From Ruminococcus sp. (GTDB lineage Bacteria; Bacillota; Clostridia; Oscillospirales; Ruminococcaceae), in assembly GCA_017519145.1 (NCBI GenBank), contig JAFWTA010000044.1:1-53423 (forward strand): a stretch of 53,423 bases of DNA, written 5' to 3'. Below are positions 39,017 through 48,453 of this stretch, piece by piece. Below the pieces are notes generated by a model, which saw only the letters and a program-made list of their open reading frames with translations, searched no databases and was not told the DNA's origin. Position numbers and translations under genes: made by a program. Positions within the stretch are counted from its first letter, which is position 1. Every line of letters starts with the position of its first letter.

Positions 39017-40051
39017 TCACTTGATAGAATCAATTGCTGCCTGTGCATGGTCAACATAGATGCTGCGGATGTCCTCGTTTTCACCGAGACCTCTCAGCAC
39101 GCATTCAACATCATAGCCCTCGGCTAAGAATGCGGACTTCCATGAGTCCTCCTCATCGCCTGCCATATCGTTATTTGCGTGATCGCCGGCAACTACCATA
39201 AGGGGCTCAAGGATGACTCTCTTGTAATTGCCTTCCTTGACCTTTGCAATCACATCGTCAAGTGAAGGTGTAGCTTCAACTGTACCCACATAGTAATTTG
39301 CATAACCATCAGCTGTAAGCAGCTCCTGCATCTTAGCATAAACGCCGTTTGACTCAGCCTCTGTACCGTGTCCCATGAAGCAGATGGCAGTCTCGCCGTC
39401 ATCGTACTCCTTTGTCCAGTCTGTGATAGCCTTTTCAACTCTTGTGAAGTCCTCGTCTGTGGTGAGGAGAGGCTCACCTATAACCACCTTGTCAAATGCA
39501 TCGGAATACTCGGCTACCTTCTCTGAAAGCTCATCATACTCAAGACCGTTCATCAGGTGTGTGGGCTGTACAACAAGGTTCTTTACATCGTTGTCAACAG
39601 CTCTCTGAAGAGCTGCGTCAAGATCGTCGATAAGGATGCCGTCACGTCTGTTGACGTGGTCGATGATGATGTTTGCTGTAAAACCGCGGCGAACCGAATA
39701 ATCGGGGAAAGCCTTTTCAAAGGCGTCCTCGATGGCACCAATGGTAAGACGTCTGCTGTCATTGAAGCTTGTACCGAAGCTTACAACGAGAAGCTCATTG
39801 TCGCCGATCTCGTCCTGATTGCGGACATTATCCAGTGAAGCGTCGCCCGTGTCGTAGTTCTCTTCGTCGTCCATTTCCTCTTCCTCCGCTTCTGTTGTGT
39901 CTTCCTCAGTAGCTTCCTCGGCAGTAGTCTCGGCTGCTGTCGCTGCCTCGGTTGCGGACTCGGACTTGCTGTCCTTGCTGTCGCTGCTGCATGATGCAAA
40001 GCAGGCTGCTGTCAGTGTGATTGCAGATATAGCTGCGATAAACTTTTTCAT
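39017..40051 (-). CDS. cbiK: CbiK-family chelatase with lipoprotein signal
   Basis: CbiK inserts cobalt into sirohydrochlorin in anaerobic B12 synthesis and is normally cytosolic. This 344-residue protein instead has an N-terminal lipoprotein signal (KKFIAAISAITLTAACFASC, Cys at about 20) and an acidic Thr/Glu linker to about residue 68. The CbiK domain starts LLVVSFGTSFNDSR and keeps both His sites expected for metal binding, CFMGHGTEAES and VVAGDHANNDMAG. It should sit on the outer face of the membrane, like the exported Desulfovibrio CbiK-P. First gene after the cobalamin riboswitch; AGGAGG ribosome binding site. Chelation, de-metallation or corrin binding at the surface are all possible. 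Confidence 0.88.
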   Translation of the reverse strand: MKKFIAAISAITLTAACFASCSSDSKDSKSESATEAATAAETTAEEATEEDTTEAEEEEMDDEENYDTGDASLDNVRNQDEIGDNELLVVSFGTSFNDSRRLTIGAIEDAFEKAFPDYSVRRGFTANIIIDHVNRRDGILIDDLDAALQRAVDNDVKNLVVQPTHLMNGLEYDELSEKVAEYSDAFDKVVIGEPLLTTDEDFTRVEKAITDWTKEYDDGETAICFMGHGTEAESNGVYAKMQELLTADGYANYYVGTVEATPSLDDVIAKVKEGNYKRVILEPLMVVAGDHANNDMAGDEEDSWKSAFLAEGYDVECVLRGLGENEDIRSIYVDHAQAAIDSIK

Positions 40052-40120: not shown

Positions 40121-40194
40121 GACAAAAGCACTCATTGTCTGAGCAATGGTACGATCAATGCCTCGTGATCCGAGCTTTCAGCTCTGTACCGACA

Positions 40195-40390
40195 AACGGC
40201 AGGTCTCCTGACTTCCGTACAATAACACACTTCTCCGCCTTCCCGCTTTTCGCAGTGGCTGCACCCTCGGGCACATGGATGATGCTGTACGGTCACAGTG
40301 ACGAGATCGTGCAGGTCTCTCACCTGCTTCCCTTTTACCTTCCTGCAACGCTCACGCGATAGGAAGCACCGTTCACCTTGAAATATTAAA
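40195..40390 (-). promoter_or_regulatory. Cobalamin riboswitch
   Basis: The minus strand carries the B12-box core AAGTCAGGAGACCTGCC (40198-40214), preceded by GGGAAGGC (about 40237) and GCCACTGC (about 40252), with the 5' GGTGCTTCC helix near 40365. This order and spacing are diagnostic for the AdoCbl riboswitch. A terminator follows at 40091-40120, so high cobalamin should switch off the whole 40051-to-33865 operon. Confidence 0.92.
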
Positions 40391-43539: not shown

Positions 43540-45909
43540 ATGGATCCTAATCAGAACAGACCACAGGGCAGACGTAAAAACGTCACCTCTGGCGGCAGCG
43601 GAGCACATAGACGCGGCGACGGTCTCGGCACTGGTCCCGTAGGTTCCGGCAGCTATTCAGGCGGTCAGACAGGCGGAGGCGGCGGTGCCAAAAGAGCAGC
43701 TGCCGGCGGCGGCGGTCTCGTAACTCTGCTTATTATCGGTTTCATCATCTTCAAATTGTTCAGCGGCGGCAGCGGAGGCGGCGGCGGAGATCTTCTCGGC
43801 TCCCTTACAGGCGGCAGCGGCGGCGTTGATATCGGCTCAGTTCCATCAGGATTCGGTTTCAGCACCGAGGACACTGCTTCAGGAAGCCTTACCAGCGACA
43901 ATGCCGTTGACACAAGCGTTGCAACCGGATCACGCGAAAAGAGAACTGTCATTAAGGGCAATAACGAAGACGTAGTTACCATTATGGTCTATATGTGCGG
44001 TACCGACCTTGAGTCCAAGTACGGCATGGCATCCTCGGATATGGAGGAGATGAGAGCTGCTACCTACGGCGACAACGTAAATATTATCGTATTTACAGGC
44101 GGCTGCTCCAAGTGGAAGGTAAGCGGTATCAGCAACAAGGTCAACCAGATCTACCAGATCAAGAACGGTCAGATCGGCAGACTGGTTGATGACGCAGGCA
44201 GCAAGCCTATGACAGACCCCAACAACCTTGCATCTTTCATTCAGTTCTGCTCAAAGAATTTCCCTGCTAACAGAAACGAGCTCATTCTCTGGGATCACGG
44301 CGGCGGATCCGTTACGGGATACGGATATGACGAAAAGAACAAGAACAGCGGTTCAATGAGTCTTGCAGGCATCAAGCAGGCTCTCAAGAGCGGCGGCGTT
44401 CAGTTTGATTTCATCGGCTTCGATGCATGCCTTATGGCTACTGCCGAGACAGCTCTTATGCTCAATGATCATGCTGACTACCTTATCGCTTCTGAGGAAA
44501 CAGAGCCCGGTATCGGCTGGTACTACACAAGATGGCTCACAAACCTCGGCAAGAATACTTCAATGCCTACTCTGGATATCGGCAAGAATATCGTTGATGA
44601 TTTCGTTTCCGAGTGCGGCAAGAAGTGCAGAGGTCAGAAGACTACACTTTCAGTTATCGACCTTGCCGAGTTCTCAAACACAGTTCCTTCAAAGCTTTCG
44701 TCCTTCGCTAAGTCTGTAAGCACAAAGATCTCAAATGACGAGTACAAGGATATCTCAAACGCAAGATATGCTACCCGCGAATTCGCAGAGAGCTCACGCA
44801 TAGATCAGGTCGATCTTGTAAATCTTGCAGAAAATGTCGGAACTGCTGAGGGTAAGGCTCTCGCTGATGCTCTCAGAAATGCTGTAAAGTATAACCTCAC
44901 TTCTTCAAATATGACAAACGCTTACGGCGTTTCCATTTATTTCCCGTATCAGCGTACTTCCTACGTTGATTCAGCCTGCAATACATACGACAAGATTGGT
45001 ATGGACGCCGAGTACTCAAAGTGCATCAAGCAGTTCGCTAAGCTCGAAACAGGCGGTCAGATCGCCGCAGGCGGTACAGGCTCGGCACTCGGCTCACTGT
45101 TCGGTCTGGGCGGTTCTTCAGGCTCATCTGGCAGCTCTGATATGATCGGTTCGCTGCTCTCAAGCTTCCTCGGCGGAGGCGGCGGCAGGAGCATTGAAGG
45201 TCTGGACAGCTCCAATACCGCATTCATGGACGACACGGATGTAGACGATACAGCGGATTACCTCTCCACTCACTACTTCGATCCTTCTAACCTCGTATGG
45301 ACACAGAAGGACGGCAAATACACTATGTCGCTTGAGGATGCTCAGTGGGAAATGGTACACAAGCTGGATCTCAATATGTTCTACGATGACGGTTCCGGTT
45401 ATATAGACCTCGGTCTGGACAACCTGTTCACATTCAATGATGATAACGATCTTGTGGCTGATACCGAAAAAAACTGGCTCTCCATCAACGGCAATGTAGT
45501 AGCATACTATCACACAGATACTACCTACAATGGCACAGAACAGATAATCAGAGGCTATGTTCCTGCTCTCCTCAACGGAGAAAGAGTCAACCTCATTATC
45601 GTCTTTGATGATGAACACCCCGATGGTTACATCGCAGGAGCTTCAACAGACTATGTAAACGGCGAAACAGACGCTGTTGCAAAAAATCTGACAGAGCTTA
45701 CAGTCGGTGATACTCTCGACTTCATCTGCGACTACTATTCATACGACATGGAATATCAGGACAGCTACTTCATCGGCGATCAGGTAACTGTTACGGATAA
45801 TATGACAATCAGCAACACCGATGTTGGAAGCGGCGCCTGCCACATTCTCTATCGTTTCTCTGATATCTACAATCAGGACTACTGGTCTGAACCTATCGTT
45901 ATAAAATAA
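43540..45909 (+). CDS. Membrane-anchored clostripain-family (C11) cysteine peptidase
   Basis: About 789 residues. The start MDPNQN (43540) has GGAGG 6 nt upstream; the frame extends upstream through the promoter. A short basic, Gly/Ser-rich cytosolic segment precedes one helix (LVTLLIIGFIIFKLF, about 62-76), a Gly-rich linker, then the C11 domain. That domain has TIMVYMCGTDLESKYG, the catalytic His in ELILWDHGGGSVTGYGYD and Cys in DFIGFDACLMATAE. The propeptide/light chain split of secreted clostripain is not obvious. After a second Gly/Ser-rich stretch (about 515-565), a beta-rich C-terminal domain of unknown family follows. Arg-specific cleavage at the cell surface is inferred from family. 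Confidence 0.9.
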   Translation: MDPNQNRPQGRRKNVTSGGSGAHRRGDGLGTGPVGSGSYSGGQTGGGGGAKRAAAGGGGLVTLLIIGFIIFKLFSGGSGGGGGDLLGSLTGGSGGVDIGSVPSGFGFSTEDTASGSLTSDNAVDTSVATGSREKRTVIKGNNEDVVTIMVYMCGTDLESKYGMASSDMEEMRAATYGDNVNIIVFTGGCSKWKVSGISNKVNQIYQIKNGQIGRLVDDAGSKPMTDPNNLASFIQFCSKNFPANRNELILWDHGGGSVTGYGYDEKNKNSGSMSLAGIKQALKSGGVQFDFIGFDACLMATAETALMLNDHADYLIASEETEPGIGWYYTRWLTNLGKNTSMPTLDIGKNIVDDFVSECGKKCRGQKTTLSVIDLAEFSNTVPSKLSSFAKSVSTKISNDEYKDISNARYATREFAESSRIDQVDLVNLAENVGTAEGKALADALRNAVKYNLTSSNMTNAYGVSIYFPYQRTSYVDSACNTYDKIGMDAEYSKCIKQFAKLETGGQIAAGGTGSALGSLFGLGGSSGSSGSSDMIGSLLSSFLGGGGGRSIEGLDSSNTAFMDDTDVDDTADYLSTHYFDPSNLVWTQKDGKYTMSLEDAQWEMVHKLDLNMFYDDGSGYIDLGLDNLFTFNDDNDLVADTEKNWLSINGNVVAYYHTDTTYNGTEQIIRGYVPALLNGERVNLIIVFDDEHPDGYIAGASTDYVNGETDAVAKNLTELTVGDTLDFICDYYSYDMEYQDSYFIGDQVTVTDNMTISNTDVGSGACHILYRFSDIYNQDYWSEPIVIK

Positions 45910-45915
45910 AACAGC

Positions 45916-45942
45916 GGAGCAGCCTTTGGGCTGCTCCTTTTG
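45916..45942 (+). terminator. Terminator of the clostripain gene
   Basis: GGAGCAGCC/GGCTGCTCC with a 4-nt loop, followed by TTTTG. Confidence 0.88.
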
Positions 45943-45985
45943 TATTGTAAAAAAATAAAAATAATTACATAAAATTTATTTGCAC

Positions 45986-46014
45986 TTGACATTACTTCCC
46001 GTTTGTAGTATAAT
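45986..46014 (+). promoter_or_regulatory. Promoter of the tRNA-Pro/tRNA-Leu locus
   Basis: TTGACA (45986-45991), 17-bp spacer, TATAAT (46009-46014), 12 bp before tRNA-Pro. Confidence 0.88.
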
Positions 46015-46025
46015 ATTAATGCTGT

Positions 46026-46102
46026 CGAGGTGTGGCTCAGTTTGGTAGAGTACTACGTTCGGGACGTAGGGGCCGCAGGTTCAAATCCTGTCACCTCGAC
46101 CA
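46026..46102 (+). tRNA. tRNA-Pro (CGG)
   Basis: A 77-nt cloverleaf with acceptor CGAGGTG/CACCTCG, anticodon loop TTCGGGA (anticodon CGG) on the stem CTACG/CGTAG, T-loop TTCAAAT and encoded CCA. Confidence 0.93.
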
Positions 46103-46141
46103 TAAGGACAGTATTGTTTTCATTATACTGTCCTTTTATAC

Positions 46142-46186
46142 GCCGCTGTGGTGGAATTGGCAGACACAAGGGACTTAAAATCCCGT
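46142..46186 (+). pseudogene. Truncated intronless 5' half of tRNA-Leu (UAA)
   Basis: The first 35 nt equal exon 1 of the intact tRNA-Leu at 46384 except one D-loop base (AATTGG versus AATAGG). The sequence continues without an intron through the anticodon loop CTTAAAA and into TCCC. After that the variable arm, T-arm and acceptor 3' strand are missing, so it cannot make a tRNA. It sits where a tRNA-Leu would follow tRNA-Pro. Confidence 0.85.
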
Positions 46187-46383
46187 GAACGATTTTTAGT
46201 CACTTTGTACTTCCGATTGCCGCTGACAGCTCGCGCTTAGCGTATCTACAAGGTTTTCTGAAAAGGTTGGTAGAAAAGACCTGTTATGTTATCGAGTTTT
46301 TCTACCATTTTTCTACCACTTTTTCGATTCCGTGCAGATTGTTGAAATCTTCTGAAAAAGAAGAAGCAGTAAAAATTGAATAT
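46187..46383 (+). other. Spacer between the two tRNA-Leu copies
   Basis: No gene. Contains repeated TTTCTACC motifs (around 46301-46318) and their complement GGTAGAAAA (46267-46275), forming a GGTAGAAAA/TTTTTCTACC inverted repeat. TTTTCTACC also recurs past the tRNA at about 46767 and near the integrase start, so these may be integrase arm sites. Confidence 0.4.
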
Positions 46384-46709
46384 GCCGCTGTGGTGGAATA
46401 GGCAGACACAAGGGACTTTGATGTTTGTACACACTTCAACAAGTGTGTCTACGGTTGATCCGTAGAGAGTGCCTACAGAGAAATCTGTAGAGTAGAAGTC
46501 GGCTAAAACGGTGAAGGCACAAACAGAACGCCGTGCTAACCCGTCAGGGTGAGTGTAGAGACTTTACACCGACTACCTAAGTCCGAAAGGATATGGTAAA
46601 GACCAAGTCCAGACTACAACACACTTTCGTGTGGCTATGGTAACATAGAGTAGTACGAAAATCCCTCGCTGGAGACAGCGTACCGGTTCAAGTCCGGTCA
46701 GCGGCACCA
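46384..46709 (+). tRNA. tRNA-Leu (UAA) split by a group I intron
   Basis: Exon 1 is 46384-46418 and exon 2 is 46658-46709. Joined, they give an 87-nt tRNA-Leu with acceptor GCCGCTG/CAGCGGC, anticodon stem AGGGA/TCCCT, loop CTTAAAA (anticodon TAA), long variable arm CGCTG/CAGCG, T-stem ACCGG/CCGGT and encoded CCA. The 239-nt insertion falls between U34 and A35. A terminator-like TAAAATCGA/TCGATTTTA hairpin follows at 46721-46751. Confidence 0.93.
46419..46657 (+). ncRNA. Group I intron (IC3-like) in the tRNA-Leu anticodon loop
   Basis: The insert follows a U (U34) and ends in G (46657), the universal group I boundaries. The internal guide GAGT (46467-46470) pairs with exon ACUU, giving the U-G splice-site pair. 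P2 is CTACAGA-GAAA-TCTGTAG (46473-46490). The catalytic core is recognisable: GTGTAGAGACTTTACACC, then CTACCTAAG, then ATGGTAAAGACC with AAGTCCAG. These track the Azoarcus tRNA-Ile intron order. Two extra hairpins (ACACACTT/AAGTGTGT, CTACGG/CCGTAG) extend the P1 loop. No ORF inside. Confidence 0.92.
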
Positions 46710-46720
46710 CAAAACATCGT

Positions 46721-46751
46721 AAAATCGAGCTTTTTCGGAAGTTCGATTTTA
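46721..46751. terminator. Terminator between tRNA-Leu and the integrase
   Basis: TAAAATCGA/TCGATTTTA with a 13-nt loop and T-run TTTTTTT on plus. It can serve the tRNA on plus and, less well, the convergent integrase. Confidence 0.7.
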
Positions 46752-46792
46752 TTTTTTTGCCTTACTTTTCTACCAAACAGCCTAAATTCGGT

Positions 46793-48085
46793 TTAATCCG
46801 TTGTGTCATTTTCCGTATCAGGACTTTCTACCCGCCCATTATTTGCAGAGATAGGCGGTTTCTTGACAGCACCACTACCGAGGGCATTGGCAATCGTATT
46901 TGCCGAATCAATCTTAGAGTTGAAATCCAAGTGGCTGTAAAAATCAGCGGTTACATGGAATGTGGAGTGTCCGAGCCACTCCTGAATTGCTTTCATAGGA
47001 ACGCCGTTAGCGAGAAGCAGACTTGCACAAGAATGTCTCAGATCGTGAAAACGAATCTTTTTCAGCCTGTACTTCTTAATAACGTTAGCGAAATGGTCAG
47101 TAACATAATTGGGCGTGATCAGCTTGCCCAGCTCATCGGTGCAGATGTAGTCATCGTATTCGTGGTCATATCCGCTTTTCAGAACAACTGAAAGATAATC
47201 GTCCTGTTCCTTTTTGGCTTTCAGCACATCAGCGATGTACGGAATCAGCGGAAGGGTTCTATGACTTGCTTTAGTTTTCAGCTTGTTCGCAAATTTCACC
47301 ACGAGTTTACCGTCTTCATAGATGTTGTATGCCTTTTCGTGAATCGTGATAGTCTGCTTATCAAAATCGATAGCGTCCCAACGCAGACCGATGATCTCAC
47401 TTCTGCGCAGTCCGTAGTAGGCAGCGATCAGCACCACTACCTCCATTCGATCTCCTCTGAAAACAGAAAACAGCCTTTCAAGCTCTTTGGAATTATAAAA
47501 TGTCGCTTCATACTTGTCGAGCTTCGGGCGGTCTGTCTTTTCAGATTCGTTGCAGGTTAAATACCCCATCTTAACTGCATACTTCAAAGCCTTATGAATA
47601 TTTGCGTGATAATGCTTGATTGTGTTGGCGGTCATTCCCTCTGCAAACTTGTCGTTATAGAACTTCTGAAGCTCCACAGCCGTCACCTCAGCAAGTGTAA
47701 TGTCGGGAAATACCGTATCGAAGTAGCGAACCACGCTGTTGAGCTTCTGGCTGTAACTCTCATACGTTGTTTCGGCAATCGTAGGCTTGATGGCTTCAAG
47801 CCAGTCACGCATAAACACTGTAAACTTGTAATCAGCAGCCGTGAGCTTTGCTCTTGCCTGTTCCTGAGCCTTTTTGAAGAGCTGTCCGTTGATATAGTCC
47901 TCATAGAACTGCGTCACGATCTCCTCGACCTTGACGTTCAGTGCCTTCTTAGGGCATTTCTCAGGCAGATCTGTACCGATCCATTTTCTCTTGCGTTTTC
48001 CTTCGTTATCCTTATAGTCAAAGACAACATAGTGTTTACCGCCTTTGACAGCGGTAATGTACTTAAAGGGCAGACTTGCTTTCAT
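46793..48085 (-). CDS. int: Intact tyrosine recombinase/integrase
   Basis: 430 residues of the Tn916/phage-type integrase class. It has an N-terminal arm-binding domain (KYITAVKGGKHYVVFDYKDN), a SAM-like core-binding domain (TTYESYSQKLNSVVRYFDTV) and the catalytic residues: Arg in AAYYGLRRSEIIGLRW, HxxR in IRFHDLRHSCA, His in WLGHST and the Tyr in TADFYSHLDF. All are intact, so it should be active. It converges on tRNA-Leu, 80 bp from the tRNA 3' end, with the excisionase gene just upstream, the usual att-proximal arrangement. Confidence 0.93.
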   Translation of the reverse strand: MKASLPFKYITAVKGGKHYVVFDYKDNEGKRKRKWIGTDLPEKCPKKALNVKVEEIVTQFYEDYINGQLFKKAQEQARAKLTAADYKFTVFMRDWLEAIKPTIAETTYESYSQKLNSVVRYFDTVFPDITLAEVTAVELQKFYNDKFAEGMTANTIKHYHANIHKALKYAVKMGYLTCNESEKTDRPKLDKYEATFYNSKELERLFSVFRGDRMEVVVLIAAYYGLRRSEIIGLRWDAIDFDKQTITIHEKAYNIYEDGKLVVKFANKLKTKASHRTLPLIPYIADVLKAKKEQDDYLSVVLKSGYDHEYDDYICTDELGKLITPNYVTDHFANVIKKYRLKKIRFHDLRHSCASLLLANGVPMKAIQEWLGHSTFHVTADFYSHLDFNSKIDSANTIANALGSGAVKKPPISANNGRVESPDTENDTTD

Positions 48086-48210: not shown

Positions 48211-48453
48211 TCATTTTTGTTCAGGATCGTTGCCATTATGTTGTGCGCATTGTCGAACGTAAATATATTCGATAACCTCGATTTTGGCGGCCTTAAATGT
48301 GTTGCCACATCGAAAAGCCCGTATTTCTCCGGTGCGAAGAAGCCTATATGCTTTCTTTAAGCCGATGCCCACCATTTCAGCCACATCTTTAGCAGACACT
48401 ACATCAGGGTAATCCTTGAACATCTTGTTATAGTTTCTTTTAGAAAGACTCAT
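48211..48453 (-). CDS. xis: Excisionase-like small HTH protein
   Basis: 80 residues containing a winged-helix/MerR-like excisionase domain: YPDVVSAKDVAEMVGIGLKK, then AYRLLRTGEIRAFRCGNTFK. This is the pattern of Tn916-family Xis and helix_turn_helix_17-type proteins that bend DNA for excision. It is 125 bp upstream of int, with a GGGAGG ribosome binding site 12-13 nt before the ATG. The family is clear; that it works with this integrase follows from position. Confidence 0.82.
   Translation of the reverse strand: MSLSKRNYNKMFKDYPDVVSAKDVAEMVGIGLKKAYRLLRTGEIRAFRCGNTFKAAKIEVIEYIYVRQCAQHNGNDPEQK

Follow-up and report, generated by a model that had tools for sequence, protein, structure and literature searches.

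A tyrosine-integrase element that splits tRNA-Leu(UAA) in a Ruminococcus genome and very probably brought a replacement copy interrupted by a group I intron

Introns in tRNA-Leu genes occur sporadically and usually without homing genes, and their mode of movement is a long-standing problem. The group I introns in tRNA-Leu(UAA) of cyanobacteria and plastids share both the insertion site between U34 and A35 and the ribozyme type of the intron described here; the tRNA is the same, and size and core order are similar. The core order may also resemble that of the Azoarcus tRNA-Ile intron, as the first-pass annotation had it, and subgroup IC3 is a candidate assignment. The present intron differs in its carrier, a replacement tRNA borne by an integrative element of Ruminococcus-like bacteria, and in that the element type has an insert of about 50 nt, comprising two hairpins, before the guide. 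IStrons likewise tie a group I ribozyme to bacterial mobile DNA, but there it belongs to an IS-type element, whereas here it lies in a cargo tRNA, has no ORF of at least 80 aa and is neighboured by an integrase gene instead of being joined to an IS transposase. Archaeal tRNA introns are spliced by proteins, and Tycheposons carry a whole tRNA.

Three described systems resemble parts of the present locus. The tRNA-Thr(GGU) of Caldiarchaeum has introns at 24/25 and 45/46, with a 5' tRNA fragment upstream of the intron-bearing tRNA and a recombinase beside it, and the authors who described it suggest that the intron brought by the element prevents further invasion (PMC3293823). The locus described here differs in having a group I ribozyme within an anticodon-loop core, in several genomes, together with an empty site and an attR. 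Anticodon-centred islands of the Islander collection have a tyrosine integrase, a crossover in the anticodon loop and a displaced tRNA fragment at the far end, and they make the target gene whole again through tDNA carried in attP as a fragment (PMC4383910). The present element contains a whole tRNA instead, about 200 nt in from its left end. As here, Tycheposons have a tyrosine recombinase and a tRNA at the border; the accessible portion of that paper mentions no intron (PMC10872708), and the element in the window has one. Titles and the opening lines of abstracts in the open-access literature, which leaves most subscription papers outside and is therefore weak evidence of absence, yielded no group I intron in a Firmicute tRNA-Leu and no self-splicing intron of a bacterium in a rescue tRNA carried by an element. 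The present locus provides a carrier for a tRNA-Leu intron, for which both ends, the empty site and forms resembling stages of loss are all observed. It may also offer a bacterial, ribozyme-based case for the protection of attachment sites by tRNA introns, which has so far been argued for archaea (PMC3293823).

The window is the whole stretch of DNA analysed, 53,423 nt of contig C53 in a draft Ruminococcus genome (G000). On its forward strand, a tRNA-Leu(UAA) is divided into a 5' exon (46384–46418) and a 3' exon with an encoded CCA (46658–46709) by an insert of 239 nt (46419–46657). ARAGORN reads the joined exons as an 87-nt tRNA-Leu(taa), bearing out the first-pass annotation, which had described a perfect tRNA interrupted between U34 and A35 by an insert that follows a U and ends in G. 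The terminal G is present in all 11 other extracted introns as well. The guide GAGU (46467–46470), which serves as the IGS, is complementary to the exon sequence ACUU, as had been proposed, and the splice-site U·G is found in all nine aligned introns. With its intron option, ARAGORN returns an insert of the same 239 nt; it sets the joint at another position of the loop, however, and so calls the tRNA Phe or Gln. According to the ORF list, no ORF of at least 80 aa lies inside the intron.

We drew a group I model by hand on the window sequence, comprising 13 helices and 65 pairs with a P3/P7 pseudoknot: P3 (46498–46502/46569–46573), P4 (46508–46513/46529–46534) and P7 (46560–46564/46605–46609), all on the forward strand. 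The alignment consists of nine introns with splice sites and includes L025 and L198, the latter from a large uncultured phage. Under the hand-drawn structure, 97.5% of the alignment cells are paired, compared with 27–43% in slid controls, over which a structure drawn on the window sequence has an advantage. Changes on both sides occur at 26 of the 65 pairs, a number that none of 500 shuffles reached (mean 8.1). Four of the five P3 pairs covary; all five pairs of P7 are invariant, and this helix therefore has no covariation of its own. The predicted stability of the fold exceeds that of shuffled sequences (z −4.1, 0 of 200). No P5 helix was found in the element-type introns, and the two-hairpin insert is present in the seven of them that were aligned and absent from L025 and L198. 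On comparative grounds, the insert is a group I intron: the P3–P9 core with its pseudoknot and the compensatory changes sustain the original assignment.

The covariance check that had been suggested for this assignment speaks against it. RF00028 gives the window intron only 17.4 bits, far below the gathering score of 50 (E 0.1 in 1.1 kb), and in a whole-genome Rfam scan the intron is absent from the seven sub-threshold matches listed; Rfam alone was rejected as a detector for these two reasons. The gathering score is a detection cut-off and not a property of the molecule. The relative L025, from another genus of the family and 72% identical to the window intron over 103 nt, passes it with 59.1 bits, and L024, L028, L196 and L198 do not reach E 0.01 with this model.

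The first-pass annotation recognized the split tRNA-Leu and its intron and was silent on a broken native copy just upstream, and hence on the status of the interrupted gene as a replacement. Starting 39 nt downstream of the host tRNA-Pro(CGG) (46026–46102, forward; ARAGORN) is the orphan 5' half of a native, intronless tRNA-Leu(UAA) (46142–46184, forward), recognized by a direct repeat and by its match to the empty site in L254. This half ends in GGGACTTAAAATCCC, after which foreign DNA begins, and its last 12 bp are the att core ACTTAAAATCCC, the attL (46173–46184, forward), again identified as a direct repeat. The native 3' half is on contig C45 (110028–110077), where other foreign DNA extends up to the same core, ACTTAAAATCCC; by the orientation of attL and attR, this is the right end of the element.

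The undisturbed arrangement is found in relatives. tRNA-Pro(CGG) stands beside an intact tRNA-Leu(UAA) in four of the nine relatives inspected (L030, L031, L032 and L037) and also in L254. The latter, in G994, represents the empty site: tRNA-Pro and an unbroken tRNA-Leu(UAA) are followed by the dockerin gene known from C45, the flanks match, the spacer is nearly the same, and the downstream gene product is 90% identical to its C45 counterpart. Among four further relatives, L250 and L251 have an intact tRNA-Leu(UAA) between the left gene of the window (809 aa) and the symporter gene of C45, L249 has the left genes only, and L252 has neither flank. Because the two halves, the core and the intact locus of relatives agree, we take C53 and C45 to be opposite flanks of a single insertion, which divided a host tRNA. 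Its core repeat at both ends and the empty site in relatives are those of a tRNA-targeting element.

An attR with a homologous right arm and an orphan 3' half was located in four genomes: the window's (G000), G973, which holds the Ruminococcus albus 8 locus L116, G974 and G976. Five intron-bearing genomes were searched besides the window's, and in two of these, G975 and G977, neither attR nor right arm was found. In L230 (G974:C8:198500-210500), attL and attR face in opposite directions with about 8.4 kb between them, an arrangement that suggests an inversion or a misassembly and counts against the insertion model. Three candidates for attR were rejected: the tRNA-Leu 3' half of L218 (G978) because its left flank is unrelated, and those of L207 and L208 because they belong to a CAA tRNA. 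The other leucine tRNA genes of the window's assembly are GAG (two), CAA, TAG and CAG; no second tRNA-Leu(UAA) was detected among its tRNA genes, although another may be absent from this draft, which is 94% complete in 65 contigs.

The tRNA-Pro/tRNA-Leu locus has a sigma-70-type promoter, TTGACA-17-TATAAT (45986–46014, forward), that matches at 12 of 12 positions and is the sole promoter-like match in 45850–46850 (shuffles, mean 1.4 at 9/12 or better). L114, L116, L140, L028 and L129 also have a promoter upstream of the native half, and no promoter was found in the left arm of these loci or of the window; in L148, none was found at all. The left arm (46185–46383, forward) resembles arms beside native halves in L114, L116, L140 and L148, and carries TTTCTACCA-type repeats at about 46266–46277 (inverted), 46299–46308 and 46310–46319. 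Since these repeats also occur beside integrase relatives that lack a tRNA, they are probably arm sites of the integrase. Next to the arm, about 200 nt from the left end of the element, lies the complete second tRNA-Leu(UAA), followed by a terminator-like hairpin of 15 pairs with a T run (46719–46752, forward).

The integrase noted next to the interrupted tRNA at first pass is a tyrosine integrase of 430 aa (46793–48085, reverse), as the family search confirmed (PF00589, E 4.7e-23; PF14659). The nearest named integrase loci are mostly from Ruminococcus and related MAGs, which fits the earlier description of the genome as ruminococcal-type. Beyond it is the gene for a small HTH_17 protein (48211–48453, reverse; PF12728, E 5.6e-7), a candidate excisionase that has a counterpart in the same place in L040. 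The remainder of the contig (48454–53423) is probably further element DNA, judged by the orientation of attL and attR; stretches up to 51337 are common to the window and L040, L140 or L118, and beyond 51337 there is no match in the loci compared. The C45 side of the element encodes HTH_36, DUF6017 and DUF3801 proteins. The related element L040 has relaxase, MobC-like, SSB and ParA-like proteins, and by this relatedness the window element is probably an integrative mobilizable element; transfer-gene families number 0 among 10 proteins scanned from an element that is divided over contigs. The window's genome contains a second integrase of this clade, cut by the contig end and 50% identical (G000:C40:1-840).

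Taken as a whole, the locus is best explained, and with high probability, by an element that split the native tRNA-Leu(UAA) and brought an intron-bearing replacement copy. The anatomy and the empty site show that the tyrosine-integrase element inserts at ACTTAAAATCCC, which spans parts of the anticodon loop and stem in the host tRNA-Leu(UAA), and halves the gene. A 3' fragment in attP does not repair it: the native halves stay broken, and a whole second tRNA is supplied. Because no promoter was found in the arm, transcription of the replacement probably starts at the upstream promoter of the host tRNA locus. No other tRNA-Leu(UAA) was detected in the assembly, and the ribozyme would have to splice for this one to be made. 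The intron enters the att core ACTTAAAATCCC after its fourth base (ACTT), and the core is at least ACTTAAAATCC in the element of L140; the DNA of the replacement tRNA is thus without an intact core. The site of the integrase is missing from the rescue tRNA at the DNA level, and the spliced RNA would be normal.

The role that we favour, tentatively and at slightly less than even chances, is concealment: the intron would protect the rescue tRNA both against renewed integration and against recombining with att sites of the same element. It would then spread by riding on the element, without a homing endonuclease of its own. Just as likely, it is a passive passenger, an old tRNA-Leu(UAA) intron already resident in some hosts of this family that was captured with the replacement tRNA without benefit to the element. 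The anatomy is the same in both cases; a passenger would be kept because it splices well, and only the role of the intron differs.

Integrase relatives bear on this choice. We compared 111 integrase loci: the window, 29 other loci, the best 80 of 178 relatives and one viral locus, the single relative that the integrase search returned from viral contigs, which has no detected tRNA. An intron-bearing tRNA-Leu(UAA) is present at 8 of the 111, and a whole intronless tRNA lies within 500 nt at 59 (29 Leu-CAA, 17 Ser-CGA, 8 Leu-UAA and 5 Gln-UUG). Only a tRNA 3' half is present at two loci, and none of these forms was detected at 42, six of which have less than 600 nt of flank. A core copy without a 3' half stands upstream at 33 of the 59 intronless loci (19 Leu-CAA, 13 Ser-CGA and 1 Leu-UAA), and in most cases a 5' half can be recognised in it. 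The tRNA at these 33 is most naturally read as a whole replacement, whereas that at the remaining 26 could be either native or restored. Bringing a whole replacement tRNA is thus a habit, of which the intron is a variant. Integrases of the clade (e.g., L078, L085, L119 and L190) bring complete intronless Leu-CAA or Ser-CGA tRNAs, not 3' fragments. The stronger proposal that every element must hide its core was rejected, most tRNAs beside these integrases being intronless.

The integrase phylogeny is a quick tree without bootstrap, from which 7 of the 111 integrases, that of L148 included, were excluded as shorter than 330 aa; labels were assigned by hand, "none" includes incomplete loci, and L086 and L100 are labelled Ser. 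On it, the intron label changes four times, three of them forced by well-supported branches, and introns occur in the group of the window and L114–L116, in L120 (on a long branch) and in L140/L167. The integrases and introns of these loci are, respectively, 54.5% and 89.5% identical to those of the window in L140, 47.9% and 88.3% in L167, and 65.5% and 94.6% in L120. Among 39 rows with no tRNA, 31 form one clade, which seems to use another target.

The occurrence of the module beside integrases on separate branches suggests transmission or retention, which speaks against a mere passenger. A passenger would also have come to lie inside the att core by chance, though this is the usual site for such introns. 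Speaking for a passenger, intronless tRNAs are commoner beside these integrases, and introns exist without a found integrase at seven element-type loci (L024, L028, L233, L234, L235, L242 and L247) and four short-P1-type loci (L025, L237, L238 and L239). As for protection, stacked units of a half plus an arm are found at L078, L085 and L088, and a lone 3' half beside the integrase at L086 and L100; these arrangements suggest repeated targeting of intronless replacements whose cores are intact. Signs of re-targeting occur at 5 of 61 intronless and 0 of 8 intron loci, a comparison without power (Fisher p = 1). Points against protection are that (i) 59 of the 111 loci have a whole intronless tRNA, one of them a UAA with a native half (L129); (ii) L117, with an integrase of 89% identity, is intronless; and (iii) L115 lost its left arm despite the intron. 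L117 has a promoter and no arm, and may have lost arm and intron together in one deletion via the shared AAAATCCC.

Queried with the window intron, 6 of 197 family genomes gave a match at E 0.01, four of which (the window's, G096, G097 and G138) have tRNA-Leu introns; at E 1e-6, matches came from 4 of 125 genus genomes, the window's included. A search with L025 gave matches in 12 of 396 genomes of the family, again including the window's. The totals are 15 element-type intron loci, two of them in G096, and four of the short-P1 type, repeat loci being judged by sequence and counted once (L240=L114, L241=L116, L244=L148, L246=L167, L243=L028, L248=L023 and L120=L023). One element-type locus is in the record of Ruminococcus albus 8, which is not marked as a MAG; the other sources are mostly drafts or MAGs.

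Several of these loci appear reduced. L115 keeps intron and integrase, is missing the left arm and has a promoter directly before the tRNA. L028 has a native half, arm and intron-bearing tRNA and then another gene, hydrolase-like by reading, in place of the integrase; L242 is similar without the native half. L024 has a promoter and an intron-bearing tRNA and no integrase in its contig of 10.8 kb, and in L233, L234, L235 and L247 no integrase was found in the downstream DNA, which is at most about 1.5 kb and less in L233. By their anatomy, L115, L028, L242, L024, L233–L235 and L247 may be stages of element loss, and recombination between the repeated exons would yield such forms. The self-splicing intron might be a disguise at the DNA level against the element's own and rival integrases, the ribozyme spreading with the rescue tRNA and settling by exon-repeat recombination, a proposal that we hold a little less probable than its negation. 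If true, it would provide a route by which tRNA introns without homing endonucleases become clean resident introns, and Ruminococcus albus 8 is a host in which the protection of the attachment site is testable.

We also considered that splicing regulates, setting the supply of tRNA-Leu(UAA) or sensing the state of the element, with UUA a rare codon; this is improbable, with roughly the chances of a long shot. UUA occurs 0 or 1 time per gene in the four genes counted. GGCACAAACA (46516–46525), in J4/5, where it replaces P5, can pair with UGUUUGU at the start of the intron (46422–46428) and with GUGCC overlapping the guide (46469–46473), and these pairings are a possible switch. However, GGCACAAACA and its pairs are invariant among the 10 introns aligned and so offer no covariation, and complementarity over 7 nt is not unusual by chance alone.

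A decayed, non-splicing insert or an assembly artefact is very improbable: the RF00028 score is below the cut-off and the genomes are mostly drafts and MAGs, but the intron type recurs at 15 loci, including one whose record, from Ruminococcus albus 8, carries no MAG label, its helices have compensatory changes, and no other tRNA-Leu(UAA) was detected. Least credible of all is that the interrupted gene is native to the host and an integrase inserted nearby: intron copies without a found integrase do exist elsewhere, but the native gene is intronless in relatives, as in L254, which contradicts this reading, its two halves flank the element, and the native half in L148 comes from a different tRNA-Leu(UAA) than the element's copy.

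Beyond the family, a strict core pattern matched 3 of 391 genomes of the class, and the two besides the window's are tRNA-Asn(GUU) introns by exon reading. These group I-like introns (L196 and L197, in G970 and G937 of one genus) lie in an apparent tRNA-Asn(GUU) directly after a 5S rRNA. The core pattern had 0 matches in viral contigs, and plasmids and phages gave tRNA-exon matches only, except for a 79% core match in two records of an uncultured 735-kb phage. One such record, LR756501, encodes a tRNA-Leu(UAA) with a group I-like intron of 205 nt at the same site (L198, 1361–1647).

Two intron loci have features of their own. The copy in L235 has an insertion of about 300 nt before the guide, and in L234, CRISPR-like repeats (GAACTATAGTAGTGT...) lie a few hundred bases upstream of the interrupted tRNA-Leu. 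At the left end of the window, a tRNA-Val (62–137) occupies the same place as one at G000:C43:62-137; because two contigs begin in this way, the window probably starts at an assembly repeat. An ordinary cobalamin riboswitch (40181–40388, reverse; 92.9 bits) precedes the ORF at 39017–40051.
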